NCBI RefSeq assembly: GCF_026013545.1
Contig: NZ_JAPDOG010000023.1
Coordinates: 1 to 64,000 of the forward strand
Length of the DNA: 64,000 nucleotides
Direction: 5' to 3'
Source: Defluviimonas salinarum
Lineage (GTDB): Bacteria; Pseudomonadota; Alphaproteobacteria; Rhodobacterales; Rhodobacteraceae
Below, piece after piece: positions 5,087 through 64,000 of this stretch. Position numbers and translations under genes: made by a program. Position 1 is the first letter of the stretch, and every line of letters begins with the position of its first letter. The notes under the pieces were generated by a model. That model was not told where the DNA came from, did no database searches, and saw only the letters and a list, made by a program, of their open reading frames with translations.

Positions 5087-7504
5087 ATGGAAACTCACGC
5101 CCGTGTTGTCATCATCGGCGGCGGCGTCGTCGGCTGCTCGATCCTCTTCCACCTCGCCAAGTTCGGCTGGAAGGACGTCATCCTTCTCGAACGCGACGAG
5201 CTGACCTCCGGGTCGAGCTGGCACGCGGCCGGCCAGATCCACACGATCTCGTCCGACCCGAACATCAGCCGGCTTCAGGGCTACACGATCAACCTCTACA
5301 AGGAGATCGAGGAGACCTCGGGCCAGTCGGTGGGGATGCACAACACGGGCGGCTTCTACCTCGCCTCGAACGAGGTCTGGTACGACTACCTCAAGCGCGA
5401 GCGGTCGAAGGCCCGCTACATGGGCCTCGACCAGGAGTTCATCTCCGTCGAGGAGGCCGCGCGACGCCACCCGCTGATCGACCCCAAACACTACATCGCC
5501 GCCCTTTGGGACCCGCTTGACGGCGACGTCGACCCGTCGGGCGTCTGCTACGCCTATGCGAAGTCGGCCCGCGTGCACGGCGCGAAATATTACACCCATA
5601 CCCCGGTGATCGAGACGCGCCAGCGCAAGGACGGGACCTGGGACGTCGTGACCGAGAAGGGCACGATCAACACCGAGCATGTCGTCAACGCGGCCGGTCT
5701 CTGGGCGCGCGAGGCGGGGCGGCTGGCTGGCGTCCACCTGCCGGTCCAGCCGATGGAGCACCACTACCTCGTTACCGAGGAGATCCCCGAGATCGCCGAG
5801 CGGATGAAGACGGGTGAGCGCCTGCCCGCAGGCATCGACTACGAGGCCAACATCTATTTCCGCCAGGAGCGGAACGGGATGCTCCTTGGCACCTACGAGC
5901 CGAAGTCGACCCCTTGGAAGGTGGGCGGCACGCCGATGGACTTCGGCCACGAGCTTCTGCTACCCGATCTAGACCGGATCGCCGACCGGCTGGAACTGGC
6001 CTTCGACCGCATCCCGGCGCTCGGCCGCGCCGGCATCAAGAACGTCGTCAACGGGCCCTTCACCTTCGGCCCCGATGGCAACCCGATGATCGGGCCGGTG
6101 CCGGGCCTGACGAACTACTGGGCGGCCGTGGGCGTCATGGCGGGCTTCTGCCAGGGCGGCGGCGTCGGCAAGTGCCTTGCCGAATGGATGATCGAGGGCG
6201 AGCCGGAGATCGACGTCTGGGCCATGGACATCGCCCGCTTCGGCGATTTCGCCACCCCCGACTGGGGCACGGTGAAGTCGTCTGAGAACTACGAGCGCCG
6301 CTTCGTGATGACCTTCCCGAACGAGACCCTGCCCAAGGGCCGGCGCCAGAAGACCACCGCGCTCTATGACCGGCTGGTCGGTCGCGGCGCGGTCATGGGC
6401 ACCTCCTTCGGGCTCGAACACGCGCTCTGGTTCGCGAACGGACCCGAGGATGCGCATGAGGCGCCGACCTTCGACCGCAACCGCAGCCACGCCTATGTCG
6501 CGGCTGAAGTGAAGGCTGTGCGCGAGGCGGTCGGCATGATCGAGATCGCCAACTTCGGCAAGCACGAGGTCAAGGGGCCGGGCGCGCGCGCCTTCCTCGA
6601 CCGGATGCTCGCCGGCAGGCTGCCGAAACCGGGGCGTGTCGCGCTTTCGCCGGTGCTGACCCACAAGGGCAAGCTTTACGGCGACCTCACCGTCACCTGC
6701 CTCGCCGAGGATCACTTCGTGCTGCTCGGCTCGGGTGCTGCGCAGGAGATGCACCGGCGCTGGTTCACCCGCCACCTGCCGGATGAGGGCGTCGCCTACG
6801 CCAACATCACCGACAGCCTGCACGGTGTCGCCATCGCCGGGCCGAATGCCCGGAAGCTCCTCGAGCGTGTTACCCGCGACGACGTTTCCGCTAATGCGCT
6901 GAAGTTCCGCGATGTCCGCAAGACCTTCGTCGGCGGCGTGCCGGCGATTCTGATGCGGCTCTCCTTCTCGGGCGAGCTCGGCTACGAGATCTATGTGGCG
7001 CCCCAGTACCAGATGCGGCTCTGGGAGGCGCTGGAGGAGGCGGGCGATGATCTGGGGCTGAAGCCCTACGGCGCGCGGGCGCTGATGAGCCTGCGGCTGG
7101 AAAAGGGCTGGGGAGTCTGGACGATGGACTTCCGCCCCGACTACACGGCGGCGGAAAGCGGGCTCGACGCCTTCATCGACTGGAAGAAGGACTTCATCGG
7201 CAAGGCGGCGGCCGAGGCCGAGGCGAAGCGCGGCCCGAAGGCCAGGCTCGTCACCATGGTCATCAAGACCGACCGCGATGTGGTTGGCGACGAGGCGATT
7301 CTGCAAGACGGCGCCTGTATCGGCCATGTGACCTCGGGCGGTTATGCCCATCATGTGGGCCGCTCGGTGGCGCTCGGCTATGTGCCACCCGCGGCGGCCG
7401 CCGACGGCACCGCGCTTCAGGTCGAGATCAACGGTACCTTCTGCGCCGCCAAGGTCGTGGCCGAGCCGGTCTACGACGCGGCCGGCGAGCGCATAAGGGG
7501 CTGA
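5087..7504 (+). CDS. Dimethylglycine/sarcosine dehydrogenase-like flavoprotein with GcvT domain
   Basis: An 805-residue two-part enzyme. Residues 6-400 form a DAO-type FAD oxidoreductase with the nucleotide motif GGGVVGCS and SSWHAAGQ, where H46 matches the histidine that binds FAD covalently in dimethylglycine dehydrogenase. Residues 430-800 form a GcvT/aminomethyltransferase-like folate domain (SGELGYEIYV, RLEKGWG). Such enzymes oxidise an N-methyl group and pass the formaldehyde unit to tetrahydrofolate. It lies 31 bp after the MttB homologue and 2 bp before the next gene, so it is in one operon. A paralogue lies at 25566-27986. Substrate is inferred only as an N-methylated amine. Confidence 0.9.
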   Translation: METHARVVIIGGGVVGCSILFHLAKFGWKDVILLERDELTSGSSWHAAGQIHTISSDPNISRLQGYTINLYKEIEETSGQSVGMHNTGGFYLASNEVWYDYLKRERSKARYMGLDQEFISVEEAARRHPLIDPKHYIAALWDPLDGDVDPSGVCYAYAKSARVHGAKYYTHTPVIETRQRKDGTWDVVTEKGTINTEHVVNAAGLWAREAGRLAGVHLPVQPMEHHYLVTEEIPEIAERMKTGERLPAGIDYEANIYFRQERNGMLLGTYEPKSTPWKVGGTPMDFGHELLLPDLDRIADRLELAFDRIPALGRAGIKNVVNGPFTFGPDGNPMIGPVPGLTNYWAAVGVMAGFCQGGGVGKCLAEWMIEGEPEIDVWAMDIARFGDFATPDWGTVKSSENYERRFVMTFPNETLPKGRRQKTTALYDRLVGRGAVMGTSFGLEHALWFANGPEDAHEAPTFDRNRSHAYVAAEVKAVREAVGMIEIANFGKHEVKGPGARAFLDRMLAGRLPKPGRVALSPVLTHKGKLYGDLTVTCLAEDHFVLLGSGAAQEMHRRWFTRHLPDEGVAYANITDSLHGVAIAGPNARKLLERVTRDDVSANALKFRDVRKTFVGGVPAILMRLSFSGELGYEIYVAPQYQMRLWEALEEAGDDLGLKPYGARALMSLRLEKGWGVWTMDFRPDYTAAESGLDAFIDWKKDFIGKAAAEAEAKRGPKARLVTMVIKTDRDVVGDEAILQDGACIGHVTSGGYAHHVGRSVALGYVPPAAAADGTALQVEINGTFCAAKVVAEPVYDAAGERIRG

Positions 7505-25565: not shown

Positions 25566-27986
25566 ATGAAGACCCAGACCCGTGTCGTCGTGATCGGCGG
25601 CGGCATCGCCGGATGCTCGACGCTTTATCATCTGACGCAGGAGGGCTGGACCGATGTCGTCCTCGTCGAGCGCAACGAGCTGACCTCGGGCACGACCTGG
25701 CATTCGGCCGCACAGGTGACGAACTTCGGCATGACCCAGACGATGGTCGGGCTGAAAAGCCACTCGATCCGGCTCTACAAGGAACTGGCCGAGGATCCGG
25801 AGTACCCCATCAACTACCACCATGCCGACGGCGGCATCCGGCTGGCCAATACCGAGCGGGTGATGGAGGGCTATCGCCATTTCGCGAGCATGGCCAAGGG
25901 CATGGACGTCGATTTTGAAGTGATCGACGCCGCCGAATGCGCCCGCCGCCATCCGCTGATCTCGACCGACAACCTCATCGGCGGGCTCTGGGACCCCTTG
26001 GACGGCGACATCGACCCCGCCCAGCTTTGCCAGGCGCTCGCGCGCCGTGCGCGCAAGGCCGGTGCCGAGGTCTACCGCAACACCCCCGTCATCGGGCTCA
26101 CGCAGCATCAGGACGACAGTTGGACCGTGCACACCACTCACGGGGACATCAGCTGCGAGATCGTCGTGAATGCCTGCGGCTACCGCGTCAACGAGGTCGG
26201 CGCGATGATGGGGGTGCACCACCCGGTCGCCTCGATGGAGCACCAGTATTTCCTGACCGAGGAGATCCCGGCGATCCGCGAGGCGGGCCACCGGATGCCG
26301 CTCCTGCGCTGCCCGATCAGCGACTACTACTGCCGGCAGGAGAAGTTCGGGCTCCTGGTCGGGTTCTACGAACAGGGCTGCAAGACCTGGGGCATGGACG
26401 GGATCGACCCGAATTTCGTCAACGCGCTCTGCCCCGATGACCTCGATCGCGTGACCGACGTGCTGGAAGGCGCCTTCGCGCGGATGCCCGCGCTGACCGA
26501 GGTCGGCATCCACACCGTCGTCAACGGCCCGATCACCTACACGATCGATGGCGCGCCGCTGGTCGGCCCGATCCCCGGCAAGCGCAACGCCTTCTGCATC
26601 ATCGGGCTCCGCGCCGGGCTTGGCGAGGGCGGCGGTCACGGCTGGCTCCTGGCGCAGCAGATCGTCCACGGCGAGGCCTGCTACGACACCTGGGTCATCG
26701 ACCCGCGCCGCTTCACCGGGCACGCCAACGTGGAGCTGACCGCGCTGAAGGCGGTGGAGGACTACCAGAACGAGTTCCGCTTCCACTTCCCGCACGAACA
26801 TCGCCCCGCCGGGCGGCCGATGAAGACCACGCCGCTGACCCCGATCCTCGCCGCCGAGGGCGCCGAGTTCGGCACGGTGAACGGCTGGGAACGGGTGGCC
26901 TACATCAAGCCCGCGCCCGATTTCCACGAGACCCATTCGTTCCGCTTCACCGAGGCCTTCGACGTGGTCGCGGCCGAGGTCAAGGCCGTGCAGGAAGGCG
27001 TCGGCCTCACCGAGGTCAACGGCTTCAACCGGATCGAGATCACCGGGCCGGGCGCGCGTGACTGGCTCGACCGGATGGTCTGCGGGCGGATTCCGCGTAA
27101 AGAGGGCAAGGTCGGGCTCGGCTATCTCCTCAACCACCACGGCATGGTCAAGGCCGAGGCGACGCTCGCCAATCTCGACGAGGGTACGATCTGGTACGGC
27201 TCGGCGGCGGCGTCTGAATATCACGACATGGACTGGCTCACGGCGCATCTGCCGAAGGACGGCAGCGTCAAGCTCCGCTCGCTCACCAATGACTGGACGA
27301 TCCTCGTCCTCGCCGGGCCGAAGGCGCGCGAGGTGCTGCAGGCCGCCTCGCGCGGCGACTGGACTGCGGCGGCCTTCCCCTGGCTCTCGGTCCGCCGCGC
27401 CTTCGTCGGCATCGCGCCGGCCGTCGTGATGTCGGTGAGCTTCTCGGGCGAGCTTGCCTACGAGATCCACGTCCCCAATGCCTCGCTCTATGCCGCGTAT
27501 CTCGCGCTGCGGCGCGCGGGCGAGGCGCACGGTCTGAGGCTCTTCGGCTCCTACGCGGTGGAATCGATGCGGCTCGAGAAGGGCTACCTGCACTGGAAGG
27601 CCGACCTCGTGACCGAATTCACCCCGTTCGAGACCGGCCTCGACCGCTTCGTGGCGATGGCGAAGCCCGATTTCACCGGCAAGCCGGCGCTGGAGCGGAT
27701 GGTCGCGGCCGGTGCGCGGCGGGCCTTCGTGAGCCTCGTGCTCGACTGCACCCACGCGCCCGCGCATGGCGGGGACAGCATCATCCACGAGGGCCGCGTC
27801 GTCGGCACCGTCACCTCGGCGGGGTGGGGGCATCGCATCGGCAGGAACATCGCCATGGGCTTCGTCGAGCCTGGCTTCGCCGCGCCCGGAACCCGGCTCT
27901 CGGTCGAGGTGATCGGCGCGCCGGTCGCGGCCGAGGTGGTGGAGGGCTGCCTCTACGATCCCGAAAACGTCCGCGTCCGTGCCTGA
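25566..27986 (+). CDS. Second dimethylglycine dehydrogenase-like flavoprotein with GcvT domain
   Basis: An 806-residue paralogue of the 5087-7504 protein with the same two-domain plan. The FAD domain has GGGIAGCS and TTWHSAAQ with H46 at the covalent-FAD position. The GcvT folate domain runs from about residue 430 (SGELAYEIHV, RLEKGYLHW). DPLDGDIDPAQL is shared nearly word for word with DPLDGDVDPSGV of the paralogue. It should oxidise an N-methyl compound and load the one-carbon unit onto tetrahydrofolate. The start follows CGGAGG. The regulator gene downstream overlaps its last 8 bases. The different substrate-side residues suggest a different amine from that of the first locus. Confidence 0.9.
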   Translation: MKTQTRVVVIGGGIAGCSTLYHLTQEGWTDVVLVERNELTSGTTWHSAAQVTNFGMTQTMVGLKSHSIRLYKELAEDPEYPINYHHADGGIRLANTERVMEGYRHFASMAKGMDVDFEVIDAAECARRHPLISTDNLIGGLWDPLDGDIDPAQLCQALARRARKAGAEVYRNTPVIGLTQHQDDSWTVHTTHGDISCEIVVNACGYRVNEVGAMMGVHHPVASMEHQYFLTEEIPAIREAGHRMPLLRCPISDYYCRQEKFGLLVGFYEQGCKTWGMDGIDPNFVNALCPDDLDRVTDVLEGAFARMPALTEVGIHTVVNGPITYTIDGAPLVGPIPGKRNAFCIIGLRAGLGEGGGHGWLLAQQIVHGEACYDTWVIDPRRFTGHANVELTALKAVEDYQNEFRFHFPHEHRPAGRPMKTTPLTPILAAEGAEFGTVNGWERVAYIKPAPDFHETHSFRFTEAFDVVAAEVKAVQEGVGLTEVNGFNRIEITGPGARDWLDRMVCGRIPRKEGKVGLGYLLNHHGMVKAEATLANLDEGTIWYGSAAASEYHDMDWLTAHLPKDGSVKLRSLTNDWTILVLAGPKAREVLQAASRGDWTAAAFPWLSVRRAFVGIAPAVVMSVSFSGELAYEIHVPNASLYAAYLALRRAGEAHGLRLFGSYAVESMRLEKGYLHWKADLVTEFTPFETGLDRFVAMAKPDFTGKPALERMVAAGARRAFVSLVLDCTHAPAHGGDSIIHEGRVVGTVTSAGWGHRIGRNIAMGFVEPGFAAPGTRLSVEVIGAPVAAEVVEGCLYDPENVRVRA

Positions 27987-52847: not shown

Positions 52848-53879
52848 TCAGACCCGCTCCACCGCGCCGCCCGCCCGGCTCCATGCGCTGAACCCGCCGG
52901 GAATATGGGCGACATTCTTCAGCCCGAGTTCCCCGGCGATCTCGACCGCGAGGGTCGAGCGTTCACCCACCGCGCAATAAAGCACGATCCGCCCATCCTT
53001 CGCGAGCCCGGCGAGCGGGCCGGAGCGGCCGCAATACTGGTCGAACTGGCCGTACGGCGCGTGGATCGATCCGGGAATCACCCCGAACCGCGCGCGCTCT
53101 CCCTCTTCGCGGATATCGACGAGCGTCACGCCCTCGGGCGGCCACGCGGCCAAGAGCTCCTCGACCTCGACCGCCGGCACCCGGTGCTGCGCCTCGAGCC
53201 GGAGTCCGAGCTTGAGGTTCTCCGGCACCGCGACATCCATCATCGCCGGGTTGGGGAGGTTGAGATTGTTCATGATCTCGGCATATTCCTCGACCGATCG
53301 GACCTGCAGCCGCGGATTGTAGCGTCTTTCCTCGCCAATCGTGCTGACCGTGTCGCCCTTGTAGTCATGCGCGGGGAAGACGAAGGTCTGCTCGGGCAGC
53401 TTCAGGAGCCGCTCGAAGAGCGAATGATACTGGGCATAGGGATCGCCGTTCTGGAAATCGGTGCGCCCCGTGCCGCGGATCAGCAGCGTGTCGCCGGTGA
53501 AAACCCGGTCGTCCATCAGGAAGCTGTAGCTTTCCGACGTATGGCCCGGCGTATGCAGCGCGGTGAGCGTGATCCCCTCGATCGTCAGCGCATCCATGTC
53601 GCGGACCCTTAGCGAGACGATGTCGGCGGGCGACTGCTCGCCCATAACGGTGACGCAGCGCGTGGCGTCGCGCAGCTTGCCCATCGCGCTGACATGGTCG
53701 GCATGGACATGGGTGTCGACCACCTTCACGAGCCTGAGGTCGAGTTCCTCCAGGAGCTTCAGGTAGCGCTCGGTCTGCTCGTAGACCGGGTCGATCAAGA
53801 GCGCCTCGGCGCCGGCGCGGCTGGCGAGCAGATAGGTATAGGTGCTGGAGGTCTTGTCGAAGAACTGGCGGAACAGCAT
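52848..53879 (-). CDS. Persulfide dioxygenase-like metallo-beta-lactamase fold with rhodanese domain
   Basis: A 343-residue protein. Residues 1-235 form an ETHE1/glyoxalase II-like metallo-beta-lactamase domain with THVHADH, LHTPGHTSESYS and GDTLLIRGTGRTDF, the last typical of persulfide dioxygenases. Residues 240-343 form a rhodanese domain with its active cysteine in LYCAVGERST. Such fusions oxidise glutathione or CoA persulfide and handle the resulting sulfite or thiosulfate. The start is the ATG giving MLFRQFF, upstream residues being family-less. The mercaptopyruvate sulfurtransferase of this window could feed persulfide sulfur, but the genes are 42 kb apart. Confidence 0.9.
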   Translation of the reverse strand: MLFRQFFDKTSSTYTYLLASRAGAEALLIDPVYEQTERYLKLLEELDLRLVKVVDTHVHADHVSAMGKLRDATRCVTVMGEQSPADIVSLRVRDMDALTIEGITLTALHTPGHTSESYSFLMDDRVFTGDTLLIRGTGRTDFQNGDPYAQYHSLFERLLKLPEQTFVFPAHDYKGDTVSTIGEERRYNPRLQVRSVEEYAEIMNNLNLPNPAMMDVAVPENLKLGLRLEAQHRVPAVEVEELLAAWPPEGVTLVDIREEGERARFGVIPGSIHAPYGQFDQYCGRSGPLAGLAKDGRIVLYCAVGERSTLAVEIAGELGLKNVAHIPGGFSAWSRAGGAVERV

Positions 53880-56242: not shown

Positions 56243-57160
56243 TCAGGTGCGTCGGTTGCTCAGAAGCCGAGACAGGAGCGGCAGAAACCGCACGGCGTTG
56301 CGGTTGCGTTCGCCCCGGCGTGTCAGCCGCGCCACGAGCTTCGGGGGACGGGTGATCCAACGTCCGCTGACCGCGACCAGCGCCTCGGACTGCAGGTACC
56401 GGTCGACGAAGCCTCTCCAGCCCAGTGCCAGCCCCGCTCCGGCCGCGGCCGCCTCGAGCAGGTAGACATAGTTGTCGTGGGTCTCGACCTCGGTCGCCGG
56501 CGCGTCCGTACCGATGGCGGCGAACCAGTCCTCCCACGTGGCCCAGCCGAGATTGGCCTTCGTGAGCGCGAGTCGCGGCACCCCCCGCCAGGCCCCGGGC
56601 TGTTGCGCCAATATCCCGGCATGCATCGCCAAAAAAGACGGCGAGGCAACGGGAACGATTTCTTCCGGAAGGATCTCGATGCAGCCGGTTTCCGGCACAT
56701 CCTCAACATATTCGAACGTCAGGTCGGCGCCGGCATTCACCATCAGCGGGACCGTCTCGTATTCGCAGGTAAGGATCCGGATCCGGGCGCCGCGGCCGAG
56801 CGATTCACGCAATCTTGCGAAATGCGGCATCAGCAGGAGGTGCGACACCTCGTGCGTGCAGGCGATCGTCACGTCCTCGTCCGCCGCCCGAAGGGCGCTT
56901 CCGGCGGCGTTGAGACTTTCGAGCGCGGTGGTCACGACACGCAGATATGCCTCGCCTGCGCGGGTGATGACGATTCCCCTTCCGGACTTCTCGGTCAACC
57001 GCGTGCCGAACTCATCCTCGATATGCTTGATGTGCCGGCTGACGGCCGATTGCGAGGTGTTCAGCTCGTCGGCCGCTCGACCGATGCCGCCAAGGCGCGC
57101 GACGCTTTCGAAGGCGACGAGAGCACTCGTGGAGGGTATCCGGTATCGCCTTTGTCCCAT
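56243..57160 (-). CDS. LysR-type regulator, GcvA-like
   Basis: A 305-residue LTTR of the GcvA-like branch. RIPSTSALVAFESVARLGGIGRAADELN and SQSAVSRHIKHIEDEFGTRLTEK form the DNA-binding domain, and the effector domain begins near residue 95. The C-terminal part has GLALGWRGFVDRYL and WITRPPK. It is transcribed away from the sulfotransferase-type operon, with 96 bp between starts, and is its likely regulator. A perfect 7-bp inverted repeat overlaps its own start codon, hinting at autoregulation. Confidence 0.93.
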   Translation of the reverse strand: MGQRRYRIPSTSALVAFESVARLGGIGRAADELNTSQSAVSRHIKHIEDEFGTRLTEKSGRGIVITRAGEAYLRVVTTALESLNAAGSALRAADEDVTIACTHEVSHLLLMPHFARLRESLGRGARIRILTCEYETVPLMVNAGADLTFEYVEDVPETGCIEILPEEIVPVASPSFLAMHAGILAQQPGAWRGVPRLALTKANLGWATWEDWFAAIGTDAPATEVETHDNYVYLLEAAAAGAGLALGWRGFVDRYLQSEALVAVSGRWITRPPKLVARLTRRGERNRNAVRFLPLLSRLLSNRRT

Positions 57161-57176
57161 ATCCGAATTGATATGG
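57157..57176. promoter_or_regulatory. Inverted repeat CCATATC-CGAATT-GATATGG in divergent LysR promoter
   Basis: A 20-bp element with perfect 7-bp arms that covers the LysR start codon and lies about 80 bp before the divergent operon. It has the size and symmetry of a LysR-type recognition site. It is the best operator candidate for the 57257-61878 genes. Confidence 0.55.
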
Positions 57177-57256
57177 AATGGCGCGCACAAAGCAATGGAA
57201 ATCGGCGCGGTCAGCGGCGAACCTTGGCGCATTCCAACCGAGAGGCAGGACGCGCG

Positions 57257-58093
57257 ATGCCGGACTACGTCAAACCCGCCCACTGGGCCGATCCAAAGAA
57301 CAAGCTCTTCCCCCATCAGGTGGGATTCACCTGTCCGCCGCAGGACTGGGACGCGGCGCCCTCGGATTTCCTCCGCATGGCGCCGGAGACCGTGGGCGTC
57401 CATGGCTGGATGCTGCATGTGCCCGAATATCGGCACCAGCTCGACCAGCGTAAGCAGAAGTTCGACATGCTTGAGGACTTCGTCCACTGCATGGCCAACA
57501 ATGGCGCCGATGTCTGCGGCCAGGTTGGCTCGAACTGGGTGCATGCCTCGGGGCTGGGCGTCGAGGGTGTCCGCCAGCATTGCGAGATGCTCAGCGAGAA
57601 GTACCAGACCCCCTTCCACATGGCGGGCTACGCGATGGTCGAGGCGCTCCGCGCGATGAATGTCGAGAAGGTCGCGCTCAACGGCGCCTATCATTGGCCG
57701 GGCTGGTGGCAGGGCACGGTGGCGTTCTGGAAGGAGGCCGGTTTCGACGTGATCTGGGCCGGCAACTTCGTCGACCAGGGTTGGTTCGAGACGCAGGAGG
57801 AGGTGAACGACTGCATCTGGTGTTTTGACGGTGATCTGGCGCGCAAGAGCTTCGAATACGTCGCCGACAAGGCACCCGATGCGGATGCCTATCTTATCAA
57901 CGGCATGTGCAACTTCCGGCGCGCGGGCGACGGCCTCGCGCAACGCCCGGTGCATCTCGAGGTCGAGTTGGAGGAGATGCTCGGCAAGCCCGTCATCGGC
58001 CACGATACGGCCCTCTACTGGCGGATCTTCAAGACCCTCGGCCTCGCGCCAACGACCCGGCAGGGCAAGCTTCTCTCCTCGCTGAAAGGATGA
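57257..58093 (+). CDS. Arylmalonate decarboxylase/maleate isomerase-like protein
   Basis: A 278-residue protein that I place in the Asp/Glu racemase superfamily, on the arylmalonate decarboxylase/maleate isomerase side, from its overall pattern: VEALRAMNVEKVALNGAYHWPGW, a helix-strand repeat, ADAYLINGMCNFRR and LGKPVIGHDTALYWRIFKTLGL. A cysteine near the expected second catalytic site is C218 in INGMCNF. The first site, near residue 90, reads GQVGSNW and has no aligned cysteine (C87 is offset), so it is more decarboxylase-like than racemase-like. The substrate is unknown. It is the first gene of a four-gene unit with a sulfotransferase. Confidence 0.7.
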   Translation: MPDYVKPAHWADPKNKLFPHQVGFTCPPQDWDAAPSDFLRMAPETVGVHGWMLHVPEYRHQLDQRKQKFDMLEDFVHCMANNGADVCGQVGSNWVHASGLGVEGVRQHCEMLSEKYQTPFHMAGYAMVEALRAMNVEKVALNGAYHWPGWWQGTVAFWKEAGFDVIWAGNFVDQGWFETQEEVNDCIWCFDGDLARKSFEYVADKAPDADAYLINGMCNFRRAGDGLAQRPVHLEVELEEMLGKPVIGHDTALYWRIFKTLGLAPTTRQGKLLSSLKG

Positions 58094-58097
58094 CCTC

Positions 58098-58853
58098 ATG
58101 CACAAGATCGTAGCGCTCTGGGCCGTGCCGAGGTCCACCTCCACCGCCTTCGAATGGATGATGCGCCAGCGCGGCGACCTCGCCTGCTTCCACGAGCCGT
58201 TCGGCGAGGCCTGGTACCAGGGCGAGGCGCCGCTCTGGCAGCGCTGGAAGGAGGGCGACCGGACGACGCCGGGCCTGACACTCGAAAGCGTGTGGGAAGA
58301 CCTCAAGGCCGCGGCGAAGGAAAAGCCGGTCTTCATCAAGGACTTCCCGCATTACATCAACCACATGTGGGATGCGGATTTCCTGTCGCACTTCACCCAT
58401 GCCTTCCTGATCCGTGACCCGGCCAAGACGATCACCTCGATCTACGACAAATGGCCGGACTTCGACGAGGGCGAGGTCGGCTTTCCCGAGCAGCGCGCCC
58501 TCTTCGACCTTCTCACCGCGCTGAACGGCACGCCGCCGCCGGTCGTGGACAGCGACGACCTGCTCGAGAACCCCTACGAGATGACCGAGGCCTTCTGCGC
58601 GGCGGTCGGCATCCCGTTCATCCCCGAGGCGCTGACTTGGGCGCCCGGCGCCGATACCGGCCAGTACAGCTGGTGGGACGGCGGATCGTTCCACGAAAAC
58701 CTGAAGAACTCGACCGGGCTCAAGCCGCAGGCGCGCAAGTACGTCACGCTCGAGGACACGCCTTCCCGCGTGAAGCAGGTGCACCGCCGGATGAAGCCGC
58801 ATTACGATCGGCTTCACGAACACCGGATCCGGGTGGGAGCGTTCGCGGCATGA
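58098..58853 (+). CDS. Sulfotransferase family protein
   Basis: A 251-residue sulfotransferase fold that should move a sulfuryl group from PAPS to a small acceptor. The 5'-phosphosulfate loop is ALWAVPRSTSTAFEWMM, HEPFGEAWYQ follows, and the 3'-phosphate side is FLIRDPAKTITSIYDKWPDF. The C-terminal region has DDLLENPYEM and the YVTLEDTP stretch. The start lies 4 bp after the preceding stop, and its own stop overlaps the start of the PAPS-forming Sat-CysC gene (ATGA). Enzyme and cofactor supply are therefore translated from one mRNA. The acceptor is unknown. Confidence 0.85.
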   Translation: MHKIVALWAVPRSTSTAFEWMMRQRGDLACFHEPFGEAWYQGEAPLWQRWKEGDRTTPGLTLESVWEDLKAAAKEKPVFIKDFPHYINHMWDADFLSHFTHAFLIRDPAKTITSIYDKWPDFDEGEVGFPEQRALFDLLTALNGTPPPVVDSDDLLENPYEMTEAFCAAVGIPFIPEALTWAPGADTGQYSWWDGGSFHENLKNSTGLKPQARKYVTLEDTPSRVKQVHRRMKPHYDRLHEHRIRVGAFAA

Positions 58854-60616
58854 AGGACGGTAGCGAGAGTGCGCAAAGGAAGCCGGCCGGGCTCATGGCC
58901 CGGCACGCTCCGATCCCGGAGCTATACGTCTCGTACGAGTCTGCCCAGAAGCTGAAGCACGAGGCCGGCGCGCTGCCGTCCTGGGACCTCACCCAGCGCC
59001 AGGTCTGCGACCTGGAGCTTCTGATGAACGGCGGCTTCTACCCCTTGAAGGGCTTCATGACCGAGGCCGACTACGACGGCGTCGTCGCCGACATGCGGCT
59101 CGCCGACGGCTCGCTCTGGCCGATGCCGGTGACGCTCGACGTCTCCGAGGCCTTCGCCGAGAAGGTCGAGCCCGGCCAGGACATCGCGCTCAGGGACGCC
59201 GAGGGCGTGATCCTCGCGATCCTCTCGGTCACCGACAAGTGGGTGCCGAACAAGGCGCGCGAGGCGGAGGGCGTCTTCGGCGCCGACGACCTCGCCCATC
59301 CGGCGGTCAACTACCTCCACAACACCGCGGGCTCGGTCTATCTCGGCGGCCCGATCACCGGCATCCAGCCGCCGGTGCATTACGATTTCAAGGCTCGCCG
59401 CGACACGCCGAACGAGCTCCGCGCCTATTTCCGCAAGCTCGGCTGGCGCAAGGTCGTGGCCTTCCAGACCCGCAATCCCCTGCACCGCGCGCATCAGGAA
59501 CTGACCTTCCGCGCCGCCAAGGAGGCGCAGGCCAACCTCCTCATCCACCCGGTCGTCGGCATGACCAAGCCCGGCGATGTCGACCACTTCACCCGGGTGC
59601 GCTGCTACGAGGCGGTCCTCGACAAGTACCCGGCCGCGACCACGCATCTCAGCCTTCTCAACCTCGCGATGCGCATGGGCGGCCCGCGCGAGGCGCTGTG
59701 GCACGCGATCATCCGCAGGAACCACGGGCTCACGCATTTCATCGTCGGGCGCGACCATGCGGGCCCCGGCAAGAACAGCCAGGGCAAGGATTTCTACGAC
59801 CCCTATGCGGCGCAGGAACTGGTCAGGAAGCACCAGGAGGAGATCGGCATCGAGATGCTCGATTTCAAACAGATGGTCTATGTGCAGGAAAAGGCGCAGT
59901 ATTTCCCGGTGGACGAGATCCCCGAGGGCGCGACCGTCCTCGACATCTCCGGTACCGAGCTTCGCCGCCGCCTGCGCGAGGGCTTGGAGATCCCCGACTG
60001 GTTCTCCTTCCCCGAGGTGGTGCAGGAGCTGCGCCGCACCTCGCCGCCGCGCGCGAAACAGGGCTTCACGGTGTTCTTCACCGGGCTCTCGGGCTCGGGC
60101 AAGTCGACGATCGCCAACGCGCTGATGGTCAAGCTGATGGAGATGGGCGGACGTCCGACGACGCTTCTCGACGGCGACGTGGTGCGCAAGCATCTGTCGT
60201 CGGAGCTCGGCTTCTCCAAGGAGCACCGCGACCTCAACATCAAGCGCATCGGCTATGTGGCCTCCGAGATCACCAAGAACGGCGGCATCGCGATCTGCGC
60301 GCCGATCGCGCCCTACACCGCGACCCGCCGTGCGGTGCGCGAGATGATCGAGGCCTTCGGCGCCTTCATCGAGGTCCATGTCGCGACCTCGCTTGAGGAA
60401 TGCGAGCGCCGCGACCGCAAGGGGCTCTACAAGCTCGCCCGCGAGGGCAAGATCAAGGAGTTCACCGGCGTCTCGGATCCCTACGAGGAGCCGCAGAACC
60501 CCGAGCTCAAGGTCGAGACCGAGAACGTCGACGTCGACAACTGCGCGCATCAGGTGATCCTGAAGCTCGAGCAGATGGGCCTGATCGGGCTCGGGAACGG
60601 CAACGGCAAACGATGA
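58850..60616 (+). CDS. Bifunctional sulfate adenylyltransferase/APS kinase (Sat-CysC fusion)
   Basis: A 588-residue fusion that turns sulfate into PAPS. Residues 60-390 are ATP sulfurylase: TRNPLHRAHQELTFRA holds the HxxH loop and FIVGRDHAGPGKNS the second nucleotide motif. Residues 405-580 are APS kinase: the P-loop GLSGSGKST, LLDGDVVRKHLSSELGFSKEHRDLN and CAPIAPYTATRRAVREMI. The start at 58850 overlaps the sulfotransferase stop; the ATG at 58895 is also possible. The same fusion serves sulfate assimilation in related genera, so it need not be dedicated to the sulfotransferase, but here it is coupled to it. Confidence 0.95.
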   Translation: MKDGSESAQRKPAGLMARHAPIPELYVSYESAQKLKHEAGALPSWDLTQRQVCDLELLMNGGFYPLKGFMTEADYDGVVADMRLADGSLWPMPVTLDVSEAFAEKVEPGQDIALRDAEGVILAILSVTDKWVPNKAREAEGVFGADDLAHPAVNYLHNTAGSVYLGGPITGIQPPVHYDFKARRDTPNELRAYFRKLGWRKVVAFQTRNPLHRAHQELTFRAAKEAQANLLIHPVVGMTKPGDVDHFTRVRCYEAVLDKYPAATTHLSLLNLAMRMGGPREALWHAIIRRNHGLTHFIVGRDHAGPGKNSQGKDFYDPYAAQELVRKHQEEIGIEMLDFKQMVYVQEKAQYFPVDEIPEGATVLDISGTELRRRLREGLEIPDWFSFPEVVQELRRTSPPRAKQGFTVFFTGLSGSGKSTIANALMVKLMEMGGRPTTLLDGDVVRKHLSSELGFSKEHRDLNIKRIGYVASEITKNGGIAICAPIAPYTATRRAVREMIEAFGAFIEVHVATSLEECERRDRKGLYKLAREGKIKEFTGVSDPYEEPQNPELKVETENVDVDNCAHQVILKLEQMGLIGLGNGNGKR

Positions 60617-61878
60617 CGGGCAGGGACATGACACCGCGGGCGCGCCTGCGACGGATCGTCGATTGCGGCCTCTGCATCGGATGCGGGCTTTGCCAGTCGG
60701 TGGCCGGGCGGGACGGGATCAGGGTGGGGAAGGCGGCGGACGGCGAGCTCCGGCCCGAGGCCCTGCCGGCTCTGGATCATGCCGCCATGAACCGCGTCTA
60801 CGCCACCTGTCCGGGAACCCGGGCCGAGGGGCTGCCGCCGGATCTGGCGGCGGAGGCGCCGGTCACCGATCGGGTCTGGGGGCCGCTCCATCGCGTCGTG
60901 CTCGGCTGGGCGGCCGATCCCGCCGTCCGGCACGAAGGCTCGACCGCGGGCGTTCTGACGGCGCTCGGACAATACCTGCTGCGATCCGGTCGCGTGGATT
61001 TCGTGCTTCATGTCCGGGCCTCGGTGGCGGAGCCGAGCTTTGGCGAGGCGGTTCTGAGCCGCACCGAGGCCGAGGTGCTCGCCGGCGCGGGATCCCGCTA
61101 TGGGCCGACCGCGCCACTCATCAACCTCGATGCGGCACTCGCGCTCGGCAAGCCCTTCGCGCTGATTGCCAAGCCCTGCGATCTCAATGCGGTGCGCAAC
61201 CTCGCCCATCTCGACGAGAGGGTAAGCCGGCTGATCCGCTACTGGCTGACACCGGTTTGCGGTGGCTACATGCCCGACAGCTCGCTCACCAAGGTGCTCG
61301 CGGATCGCGGGATCGATCGGACGAAGATGACGCGGCTGCGCTACCGGGGGCTTGGCTGTCCGGGGCCGACGACGGTCGGGTTCGCAGACGGAAGCGAGAC
61401 CTCCATGCATTACCTCGACTTCTGGGGCGAGGATGAAAGCGCCTGGTCGCTGCCGTTCCGCTGCAAGATCTGCCCCGACGGCATCGGCGAGGGCGCCGAC
61501 ATCGCCGCCGCCGACACCTGGCCCGGCGCGAGCCCGGATCGTGACGCGTCAAGAACCGATCCCGGCGTGAACTCGCTCCTGATCCGCACCCGCGCCGGGA
61601 TGGAACTCATCGCGGCGGCGGTCCGCGACGGGGCGCTTGCGCTAGGGCGCGACGTGGATGTCGCCTACATGAACGACACCCAGCCGCACCAGGTCACGAA
61701 GAAGCGGTTCGTTCATGCGCGGCACGCGGGCCTGCGCGACGCGGGTTCGCTGGCGCCCGACTGCGTCGGCCTGCGGATCGAGCACCTGTCCGCGATGAAC
61801 GACCCGGCGGAGAACCGGGTGCAGCGTGACGGCTCCATGCGGCGGGCGCTGGCCACCGGCCGGGGCGGTGTGGAGTAA
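60613..61878 (+). CDS. FrhB-like coenzyme F420 hydrogenase/dehydrogenase beta-subunit family protein
   Basis: A 421-residue protein. A ferredoxin-like motif CGLCIGCGLCQ sits near residue 20. The FrhB-type N-terminal domain follows with GSTAGVLTALGQYLLRSG, and the C-terminal FrhB domain has AKPCDLNAVRNLA, CGGYMP, YRGLGCPGPTT and CKICPDGIGEGADIAAADTWPG. Cysteines in these blocks should bind further Fe-S clusters, and the fold binds a flavin. FrhB-type proteins couple flavin and Fe-S redox steps in many pathways outside F420 metabolism. The start overlaps the Sat-CysC stop (ATGA), so it belongs to the same operon. Function unknown. Confidence 0.85.
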   Translation: MTGRDMTPRARLRRIVDCGLCIGCGLCQSVAGRDGIRVGKAADGELRPEALPALDHAAMNRVYATCPGTRAEGLPPDLAAEAPVTDRVWGPLHRVVLGWAADPAVRHEGSTAGVLTALGQYLLRSGRVDFVLHVRASVAEPSFGEAVLSRTEAEVLAGAGSRYGPTAPLINLDAALALGKPFALIAKPCDLNAVRNLAHLDERVSRLIRYWLTPVCGGYMPDSSLTKVLADRGIDRTKMTRLRYRGLGCPGPTTVGFADGSETSMHYLDFWGEDESAWSLPFRCKICPDGIGEGADIAAADTWPGASPDRDASRTDPGVNSLLIRTRAGMELIAAAVRDGALALGRDVDVAYMNDTQPHQVTKKRFVHARHAGLRDAGSLAPDCVGLRIEHLSAMNDPAENRVQRDGSMRRALATGRGGVE

Positions 61879-61887
61879 CGCCCGCCC

Positions 61888-62937
61888 CTAGGAGGCCGCC
61901 TGCCGCGCGCGGCGCGGAACCAGTGCCTTGAAGAGGTCCCGCATCGCCAGCTTGCCGACAACGCGCCCGTCCTCGGTCACGTCGAAGGCGTGATCCGCGT
62001 CCCCGCCGGCGCGTTCGAGCGCCTGCTCGAGCGTCGCCTCGGCGTCGATCCGGTCTTGCCCCGCAGTGCCGTCCGCGGCCGCCATCACCGAGCGGACCCT
62101 GAGGACCCGCGCCCGGTTGATGTCGCGGACGAAGTTCTCGATGTAGTCGTCCGCGGGCTTCAGGATGATCTCCTGCGGTTCGCCCTGTTGGACGATCCGG
62201 CCGTCCTTGAGGACGACGAGGTGATCGGCGAGCCGCAGCGCCTCGTCGAGGTCGTGGGTGATGAAGATGATCGTCTTGTGCAGTTCCCGCTGCAGTTCCA
62301 GCAAGAGCGCCTGCATGTCGGTGCGGATGATCGGGTCGAGCGCCGAGAAGGCCTCGTCCATCAGCATGATCTCGGCTTCCGAGCAGAGCGCGCGGGCGAT
62401 GCCGACGCGCTGCTGCATGCCGCCCGAAAGCTGGTGGGGATAGTGTGTCTCGTAGCCCTTCAGACCGACCCGCTCCAGCCAGCGGCGCGCGTTCTCGCGG
62501 GTGCCGGCGCCCGGCTCGCCGCGGATCGTCGGCGCGAGCGCGGTGTTGTCGAGCACGGTTCGATGCGGCAGAAGCGCGAACTTCTGGAATACCATCGACA
62601 TCCGTGTCTGGCGCAGTCTGCGCAACTCCTCGTGCGAGAGCCGCGTGACGTCGGCGCCGTCGAGCAGGATCTCGCCCGCGGTAGGCTCGATCAGGCGGTT
62701 GAGATGCCGGATCAGCGTCGACTTGCCCGAGCCCGAAAGGCCCATGATGACGGTGATCTTTCCGGCATGCATGTCGACGTTGATGTCCTCGAGGCCGAGC
62801 ACATGGCTGTACCTGGACAGAAGCTCCTGCTTGCCGACGCCCGCGCGCACATGGCCAAGCATCGCCTTCGGGTCGGAGCCGAAGATCTTGTAGAGGTTGC
62901 GGATCGAGAGTTTCGGCTTCGGACTTTGCATGTTCAT
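61888..62937 (-). CDS. proV: Glycine betaine/choline ABC transporter ATP-binding protein (ProV/OpuAA type)
   Basis: A 349-residue ATPase. A ProV-type N-terminal LSIRNLYKIFGSDP is followed by Walker A GLSGSGKST, the Q-loop VFQKFALLPHRTV, the signature LSGGMQQRVGIARAL, Walker B IMLMDEAFSALD and the switch histidine FITHD. A C-terminal CBS-type region starts near residue 285. It powers uptake of choline, glycine betaine or a related quaternary amine. The upstream proW gene ends 10 bp before it, so the two are one operon; a binding protein gene should follow beyond the window or elsewhere. It supplies substrates that suit the amine loci. Confidence 0.94.
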   Translation of the reverse strand: MNMQSPKPKLSIRNLYKIFGSDPKAMLGHVRAGVGKQELLSRYSHVLGLEDINVDMHAGKITVIMGLSGSGKSTLIRHLNRLIEPTAGEILLDGADVTRLSHEELRRLRQTRMSMVFQKFALLPHRTVLDNTALAPTIRGEPGAGTRENARRWLERVGLKGYETHYPHQLSGGMQQRVGIARALCSEAEIMLMDEAFSALDPIIRTDMQALLLELQRELHKTIIFITHDLDEALRLADHLVVLKDGRIVQQGEPQEIILKPADDYIENFVRDINRARVLRVRSVMAAADGTAGQDRIDAEATLEQALERAGGDADHAFDVTEDGRVVGKLAMRDLFKALVPRRARQAAS

Positions 62938-62947
62938 TCCGGGCCCC

Positions 62948-63976
62948 TCAGTGCTTGGTGGCGCGGTTGACCTGGGCGAGGGCCGCCTTGGTCACGCGGT
63001 CGAGGACGATGGCCAGCATCACGATCGCGAGGCCTGCGACGATGCCGACGCCAAGCTCGAGCTTGTTGATGCCCCTCAGCACCAGCGCCCCGAGCCCCGG
63101 CGCCGAGACCAGCGAAGCGATCACCACCATCGCGAGCGACATCATGATCGTCTGGTTGACGCCGGCCATGATGTTCGGCAGCGCGAGCGGGATCTGCACG
63201 CCGAAGAGCTTCTGGCGCGCCGACATGCCGAAAGCCTCGGCGGCTTCGAGCACGTCCTTGTCGACGAGCCGGATGCCAAGATCGGTGAGGCGGATCGCCG
63301 GAACGATGGCGTAGAGGATGATGGCGATGCCGTAGAGCTTCGATTCCGTCACGCTGAAGAGGAAGATCAGCGGGATGAGGTAGACGAAGGTCGGCAGGGT
63401 CTGGAGCATGTCGAGGACCGGGATCACCGACCGCTGGAGCCGGTCGCTGCGCGACATCGCGATGCCGATCGGCACGCCGATGAGGACGCAGATCACGGTG
63501 CAGACAAGGATGATGGCGAGCGTCTGCATCGCGTAGGTGTAATGGTCGACGAAGGCGAGCATCACGAGAACGATCGCCACGAACAGGGTGACGCGCGCCG
63601 AGCGCGCCGCGAACTGGACGACGATCAGGAAGATCGGGATCACGATCCACCATGGCATGGCAAGGATCGCCCAGAGCGCGCCGTCGATCGCCCAGCTCAG
63701 GGGCTGGGTCAGCGGGTCGAGCACGAACTTCAGTGGGTCCTTGATGTCGAGAAACACGCGTTCGAGCCCCGCCGTCAGCTCGCGCGTCCGCGGGATCGCG
63801 CCGCAGGCCTCGTGCAGCGCATCGAGCGAGGGAAAGGGCATGTCCCAGGGGCTGGTCTCGGCGACCTTGCCGGTCTTTGCCAGCAGGTCCGCCAGCGACT
63901 GGGGGCCGCCGGTGCTGCCCGCTTCGCACCATTCCTTGAGGCCGAGCGCCTCGAAGAAACCCGAATAAGCCGCCAT
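62948..63976 (-). CDS. proW: Glycine betaine/choline ABC transporter permease (ProW/OpuAB type)
   Basis: A 342-residue inner-membrane permease. An N-terminal hydrophilic part (about 90 residues) precedes several membrane segments (WWIVIPIFLIVVQF, VTLFVAIVLVMLAFV, LAIILVCTVICVLIGVPIG, then the permease core). The EAA-type loop lies in EAAEAFGMSARQKLFGVQIPLALPNIMAG. The start follows AAGGGGGCGGCG; a GTG 15 bases upstream is possible. First gene of the proW-proV unit. The solute (choline, betaine, carnitine or other) cannot be told apart from sequence alone. Confidence 0.94.
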   Translation of the reverse strand: MAAYSGFFEALGLKEWCEAGSTGGPQSLADLLAKTGKVAETSPWDMPFPSLDALHEACGAIPRTRELTAGLERVFLDIKDPLKFVLDPLTQPLSWAIDGALWAILAMPWWIVIPIFLIVVQFAARSARVTLFVAIVLVMLAFVDHYTYAMQTLAIILVCTVICVLIGVPIGIAMSRSDRLQRSVIPVLDMLQTLPTFVYLIPLIFLFSVTESKLYGIAIILYAIVPAIRLTDLGIRLVDKDVLEAAEAFGMSARQKLFGVQIPLALPNIMAGVNQTIMMSLAMVVIASLVSAPGLGALVLRGINKLELGVGIVAGLAIVMLAIVLDRVTKAALAQVNRATKH

Positions 63977-64000
63977 CGCCGCCCCCTTCACTTCTGTTCA

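Follow-up and report, generated by a model that had tools for sequence, protein, structure and literature searches.

Why does a bacterium place a decarboxylase-like protein, a sulfotransferase and an enzyme for activated sulfate in one operon? The question is raised by a locus of Defluviimonas salinarum (Rhodobacteraceae), which lies in a stretch of 64,000 nucleotides (contig NZ_JAPDOG010000023.1, positions 1 to 64,000, forward strand), hereafter called the window. The locus codes for a protein with the fold of arylmalonate decarboxylase (AMDase) and maleate isomerase (AMD-like protein), a sulfotransferase (ST) of the type using 3′-phosphoadenosine-5′-phosphosulfate (PAPS), a bifunctional Sat-CysC protein and an FrhB-like Fe-S flavoprotein. 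The conserved unit of this locus is the AMD-ST pair, a real and widely conserved module which is uncharacterised among the literature matches listed. Its occurrence is nested within the distribution of a cluster of Rieske oxygenase, dimethylglycine dehydrogenase-like (DMGDH-like) and enolase-superfamily genes, a relationship absent from the preliminary description of this DNA.

Within 295 genomes of the family, ST orthologues were searched for at a threshold of at least 55% identity. Seventeen genomes including that of the window possess one, and the AMD-like gene adjoins it in 17/17. A reciprocal search with the AMD-like protein returned the same 17 genomes plus one fragment at a contig edge (G160). 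Profile searching across GTDB genomes yielded 279 confirmed AMD relatives; in the best 80 of these 279, to which all counts over 80 loci refer, the two genes are adjacent, on the same strand and in one order without exception (80/80). The merged set comprises 97 loci, some of them representing the same place twice, with 92 distinct AMD sequences, and AMD and ST are same-strand neighbours in all 96 loci where both genes were called. The loci range over alpha- and gammaproteobacteria, while no relative was confirmed on viral contigs searched with the ST profile or on plasmids searched with the AMD-like protein. The recurrent association is not due to chance. Of the four genes, whose joint conservation the preliminary description had named as a check, the pair was kept and the full set is rarer: among the loci read the exact order AMD-ST-SatCysC-FrhB occurs in the window and L109, and a version with inserted CysQ gene in L061 and, across a presumed contig junction, in Defluviimonas sp. 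WL0075. As the preliminary description supposed, no pathway for this gene set emerged from the titles and abstract starts of the literature matches listed, nor did any description of the AMD-ST pair.

ST scored 65.1 bits against a cut-off of 23.2 for Sulfotransfer_5 (PF19798) and shares with other PAPS sulfotransferases the PRSTST and RDP-type motifs, which serve PAPS binding in these enzymes. In an alignment of 93 rows, 19 sequences start later according to the gene caller, so that the N-terminal motif was scored on 74; P11, R12 and T16 are present in 74/74, R106 in 93/93 and S114 in 92/93 rows. What separates ST from other Sulfotransfer_5 members is that it forms a distinct orthologue group (55-82% identity among its members in the family sample) and has an AMD-like partner in all loci read.

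The genomic link of the pair to a catabolic cluster of the quaternary-amine type is firm. This cluster comprises a CntA-like Rieske oxygenase, a DMGDH-like demethylase, enolase-superfamily enzymes, a class III aminotransferase, an MDR-type dehydrogenase and CMD. All 17 family genomes with ST harbor the Rieske gene compared to 34 of the 278 others (P 8.7e-15, Fisher's test uncorrected for kinship); in 6/17, ST and the Rieske gene are located on different contigs or more than 1.5 Mb apart. Rieske genes were found in 46/97 AMD-ST loci, where the neighbourhood includes an RpiR regulator, DMGDH-like, MDR dehydrogenase and enolase-superfamily genes, aldehyde dehydrogenase (ALDH), CMD and DddQ-family cupins. 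Of the AMD-ST genomes from the GTDB search, 35 had been picked because no clear Rieske orthologue lay within 10 kb of the pair (exception: L099 with a Rieske gene at the edge), and in 30 of them a search of the whole genome gave a Rieske protein with E below 1e-100 (28 with identities of at least 68%, two with 46-50%). The position of the pair varies, being either within the Rieske cluster or elsewhere in the genome, and in the window it forms a separate operon beside ProXWV. The Rieske cluster of the window genome resides on contig C12 and lacks AMD-ST; there, nothing lies between the Rieske gene and ALDH, a frequent site of the pair elsewhere. In WL0075, the contig with AMD-ST breaks off within Sat-CysC, and a second one, presumably adjacent, begins within Sat-CysC and continues with CysQ, FrhB, ProV, ProW, a gene for 320 amino acids (aa), CMD, ALDH, Rieske, RpiR, DMGDH, MDR and enolase genes.

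Judged from its families, the cluster looks like a route for the breakdown of quaternary-ammonium or related onium carboxylates. It resembles known betaine catabolic enzymes (CntA, DMGDH, cis-3-hydroxyproline dehydratase family) in its linked Rieske, DMGDH-like and enolase-superfamily genes. Unlike in those sets, the Rieske and enolase-superfamily proteins score under the equivalog cut-offs, for which reason no substrate is assigned to the cluster, and AMD-ST is an apparent addition. Since 34 of the 51 family genomes with Rieske gene do not contain ST, the pair is not required for the core pathway. Twelve of these 34 were read and neither AMD nor ST was present in the fetched stretch of any of them; following the Rieske gene, CMD came next or next-but-one in seven, ALDH next in two and neither of them in three. 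Because the Rieske cluster exists without the pair, AMD-ST, often together with ALDH, seems to be a cassette which this cluster acquired.

Some further genes deserve mention. DddQ-family cupins occur in the Rieske cluster of L095 and other loci, and that of L095 (3431-4021) is close to the solved dimethylsulfoniopropionate lyases 4b29 (E 1e-76) and 4la2 (E 1e-46). A DddP-like M24 protein scoring below its cut-off is encoded in L061 (18493-19743), and M24 relatives were found in eight loci. The window itself carries two DMGDH-like genes (5087-7504 and 25566-27986), about 36% identical to the DMGDH of the cluster.

The AMD-like protein, the equally constant partner, matches the AMDase family marginally (Pfam 25.6 bits, cut-off 25.9) and falls far below the cut-off for arylmalonate decarboxylase NF052327 (22.4 vs 225). 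Its predicted model (mean predicted local distance difference test score, pLDDT, 88.6) shares the fold of arylmalonate decarboxylase and maleate isomerase (PF17645; 2vlb, 2xed, 4fq7); Foldseek returned the hypothetical protein 4ix1 as the closest solved relative (E 3e-19) and AMDase 2vlb at E 2e-12. In AMDase, G74, T75, S76 and Y126 belong to the active-site pocket and Cys188 donates the proton, while maleate isomerase and Asp/Glu racemase employ two catalytic cysteines. By profile alignment, the pocket residues correspond to G91, S92, N93 and Y145 of the AMD-like protein, so that the pocket is retained with Ser and Asn in place of Thr and Ser; N93 and Y145 occur in 92/92 sequences and S92 in 91/92. 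By contrast, the position of Cys188, aligned through 4ix1, is taken by Gly216, which like Gly91 is invariant (92/92), and the nearby C218 varies (59 Cys, 30 Ser). Both cysteine positions of the isomerase and racemase type are likewise Gly in the alignment to AMDase and 4ix1, without superposition on a racemase. With Gly at the catalytic-cysteine position in all 92 sequences, the cysteine-based chemistry usual for AMDases and isomerases is unsupported and was rejected as a basis for the decarboxylation or isomerisation envisaged in the preliminary description.

The genes and elements of the window which are relevant here are as follows:
56243..57160, (-) strand: LysR-type regulator (Pfam HTH_1 and LysR_substrate), divergent from the operon
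57157..57176: inverted repeat CCATATC-CGAATT-GATATGG upstream of the AMD-like gene, probable LysR operator
57189..57199: element AAAGCAATGGA, resembled in many of the LysR-type upstream regions compared by eye (21 sequences)
57257..58093, (+) strand: AMD-like protein with AMDase / maleate isomerase fold; cysteine positions occupied by Gly91 and Gly216
58098..58853, (+) strand: ST, PAPS-type sulfotransferase (Sulfotransfer_5) by family score
58850..60616, (+) strand: Sat-CysC bifunctional PAPS synthase (NF004040), probably an extra copy, as contig C42 starts in a second one
60613..61878, (+) strand: FrhB-like Fe-S flavoprotein (FrhB_FdhB_N and FrhB_FdhB_C), optional partner
61888..62937, (-) strand: ProV-type ATPase of a betaine-family ABC transporter (TIGR01186, 338.7 bits, cut-off 326.6)
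62948..63991, (-) strand: ProW-type permease by family matches, followed outside the window by an OpuAC-family gene

Direct reading of the genes bore out the coordinates, order and junctions given in the preliminary description for four coupled genes and a divergent LysR gene: the AMD-like and ST genes are separated by 4 bp, ST and Sat-CysC as well as Sat-CysC and the FrhB-like gene overlap by 4 bp (ATGA), and the operon converges on ProV-ProW. As the gene caller was a home-made codon model, small genes and the gene starts outside the window are rough.

The window Sat-CysC is bifunctional according to NF004040 (1051 bits, cut-off 669). Within 10 kb of AMD-ST, genes for adenosine-5′-phosphosulfate (APS) kinase were found in 13/80 loci in three architectures, accompanied by CysQ in two. 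A full Sat-CysC is present in the window, L061, L093, L099, L100 and L109, a stand-alone APS kinase in L049 and L052, and a kinase fused to a CysN remnant in L055, L062 and L066 (families checked) and in L071, L079 and L084 (by clustering). The kinase gene directly adjoins the pair in 10/13 loci and is several genes off in L062, L071 and L079; CysQ, the 3′-phosphoadenosine-5′-phosphate phosphatase, was over its cut-off in L061, L093 and L157. A rough estimate for randomly placed genes at two copies per genome, in which the loci are treated as independent and kinship is ignored, gives a chance P of 3e-12 for this linkage. Because APS kinase and sometimes CysQ repeatedly came beside the pair, ST very probably uses PAPS. 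Together with its family score, this context agrees with the PAPS-dependent sulfotransferase module that had been suggested.

Domain searches of the window assembly detected one ATP sulfurylase and one APS kinase. A single Sat-CysC copy was rejected all the same, since contig C42 opens inside a second one: its first 116 bases equal window positions 58907-59022, and beyond base 116 the contig continues into its own Sat-CysC 5′ end and a trxB-like gene, which we take to be trxB. This context, the usual site, matches the same-genus genome G010. The window genome thus appears to carry a second Sat-CysC there, and the proposal that the operon has its own PAPS supply probably holds. The start of C42 is best accounted for by a duplication collapsed by the assembler, the alternative being a mix of strains or contaminating DNA (contamination 3.57%). 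In two genomes, contig ends fall within Sat-CysC (positions 1-116 of L154, which is C42 of the window genome G000; the end of L048 and start of L157), and a duplicated Sat-CysC is therefore easily missed in short-read assemblies. Two APS-kinase genes of Sat-CysC size (frames of 573-589 aa), one of them beside AMD-ST, are present in G301 and G324; G296, G305 and G330 have one linked and one unlinked kinase, linkage being taken from contig coordinates.

The FrhB-like protein exceeds the cut-offs of FrhB_FdhB_N and FrhB_FdhB_C and possesses a CxxCxxCxxC motif near its N-terminus, while it is far from the F420 hydrogenase subunit FrhB (TIGR03289, 22.9 vs 331.5). It had been counted among the members of the operon's pathway, but as a core partner of ST it was rejected since no significant association was detectable in the 295 family genomes (3/17 vs 19/278, P 0.12). 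FrhB is an optional partner. A second FrhB-like gene of the window genome belongs to an acyl-CoA operon that also contains an enolase-superfamily gene (L156, G000:C33).

Taken together, we consider with middling confidence that the locus encodes a module which consumes PAPS for the sulfonation of a hydroxylated metabolite of the betaine type. The sulfonation step is well supported by genomic context, with transfer of sulfate from PAPS predicted; substrate and chemistry we infer as follows. A hydroxylated betaine-type compound would be imported, and ST would sulfonate its hydroxyl group, consuming PAPS. The AMD-like protein, having kept the AMDase pocket residues and lost the cysteine proton donor, may act before or after sulfonation, its target being the carboxylate group of either the substrate or the sulfate ester, and the product would thereby be channelled into the demethylation pathway. 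In operons with FrhB, this protein may provide reduction. The tie of AMD-ST to the Rieske-type cluster suggests that cells spend activated sulfate while consuming quaternary-ammonium osmolytes. If true, Roseobacter, SAR116 and gammaproteobacterial lineages would turn over marine quaternary-ammonium or onium osmolytes by a route with a step that consumes activated sulfate; the genes would be a testable set for unassigned sulfated metabolites and would give context to the DddQ-family proteins of the same cluster.

Several observations weigh against this interpretation. The ST model resembles known sulfotransferases loosely (TM-score about 0.37-0.56). The association with Rieske genes comes from a test that does not correct for kinship, the search of 35 genomes had no AMD-free control set, five of these 35 (G298, G303, G308, G316, G305; all metagenome-assembled, G305 with 35%-identical matches) gave no Rieske orthologue, and the Rieske genomes devoid of ST are numerous. 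On the side of PAPS supply, the second Sat-CysC of the window genome was deduced from a contig end; the linked APS kinase was the sole strong match in the genomes of L093, L100, L109, L052 and L084, so that no extra copy is demonstrated there; in G139 (96% complete, about 470 contigs), which has AMD-ST, no APS kinase was found; and since 276 of the 295 family genomes have an APS kinase, its mere presence is uninformative. Finally, the loss of the cysteine was read through profile alignment via 4ix1, not from superposed coordinates.

It is possible, albeit unlikely, that the module makes a stable sulfated compound serving as an osmolyte or for storage, such as choline-O-sulfate or a sulfated hydroxybetaine, with the AMD-like protein in a side role. 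This would fit the transport genes: ProXWV genes adjoin the operon in the window and lie close to L099, L109 and L157, the gene after ProW is an OpuAC-family binding protein (L155:1062-2033), and a BCCT gene is present in seven loci, all of which upholds the earlier suggested link to quaternary-ammonium transport. The ProV-type ATPase belongs to the broader family TIGR01186 and remains below the choline transporter equivalog ChoXWV (TIGR03415, 331.6 vs 483.75). A choline acceptor for the sulfate, as raised in the preliminary description, is speculative. The nearest NCBIfam of the LysR protein is the choline-sulfate regulator TIGR03418, which likewise speaks for an osmolyte, but the score is well under the cut-off (149 bits vs 324.8). 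Moreover, the AMD-like protein is as constant a companion as ST, and the distribution of a demethylation-type cluster encloses that of the pair. Just outside the window, an RpiR-type regulator and an MttB-like methyltransferase gene (L155:3453-4967) lie near the OpuAC gene.

Rather improbable is the idea that sulfate serves as a disposable leaving group, ST sulfonating a beta-hydroxy acid and the cysteine-less AMD-like protein eliminating the sulfate with or without loss of CO2. In a catabolic variant that we hold to be just as doubtful, ST would sulfonate the hydroxyl of a betaine-type hydroxy acid, and the cysteine-less AMDase-fold enzyme would collapse the enediolate and expel the sulfate, as a stand-alone counterpart of the olefin-synthase sulfotransferase-thioesterase (ST-TE) pair. 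In curacin and olefin synthases, ST is linked to the thioesterase within a polyketide synthase, and sulfonation of a beta-hydroxy acid is followed by sulfate elimination. The constant pairing, the retained pocket with lost proton-donor position and the presence of the curacin (rank 7) and olefin-synthase (rank 14) ST domains (4gbm, 4gox) among the fold matches of the ST model (mean pLDDT 85.4) argue for this idea, and the module would likewise combine a sulfotransferase with a possibly decarboxylating partner. However, these matches are weak and tyrosylprotein sulfotransferases rank nearest. Unlike in the synthases, ST is here a separate reading frame, both proteins are small, the partner has the AMD fold and the operon lacks a polyketide context. 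In addition, such a step would be expensive for a catabolic route.

That ST modifies a lipid, a glycan or a signal and is merely co-regulated with betaine catabolism seems quite unlikely. This Sulfotransfer_5 group has no substrate known to us and 34/51 Rieske genomes manage without ST, but the pair is repeatedly found as part of the catabolic cluster, and no family of glycan or lipid synthesis was found among the identified recurrent neighbours, many single neighbours being left unidentified. Ordinary sulfate assimilation, with Sat-CysC as the cysteine-pathway enzyme and the other genes incidental, would agree with the single ATP sulfurylase and APS kinase found by domain searches and is very improbable in view of the second Sat-CysC at the usual site and of the APS kinases, some with CysQ, recurring beside the pair.

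The AMD-ST operon of the window is probably controlled by its own LysR protein. The repeat ATATC-N6-GATAT, a motif chosen after the window site had been seen, occurs in the 400 bp preceding AMD, both in the window and in 21/95 other loci with called AMD gene; its 27 matches in 2.09 Mb comprise these 21, the window site, two further copies of counted sites and three elsewhere. L048 and L052 do not have it upstream. A midpoint-rooted tree was computed for the 92 AMD sequences; its bootstrap had not quite settled, and the branch of L047 is long. In this tree the window sequence is paired with that of Defluviimonas (99/87), and both join (99/87) a group of 34 rows (100/100), 29 of which have a Rieske gene within three called genes. 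Rieske adjacency changed at least six times on well-supported branches of this tree, the APS-kinase label was gained or lost at least eight times and the FrhB label changed at least ten times, L048 being counted as positive by inference for the latter two. L057, labelled Dehalococcoidia, nests among gammaproteobacterial AMD sequences, which is probably a binning error. A few genes from LysR, the window encodes a fusion of metallo-beta-lactamase and rhodanese (52848-53879), a possible enzyme of sulfur metabolism.

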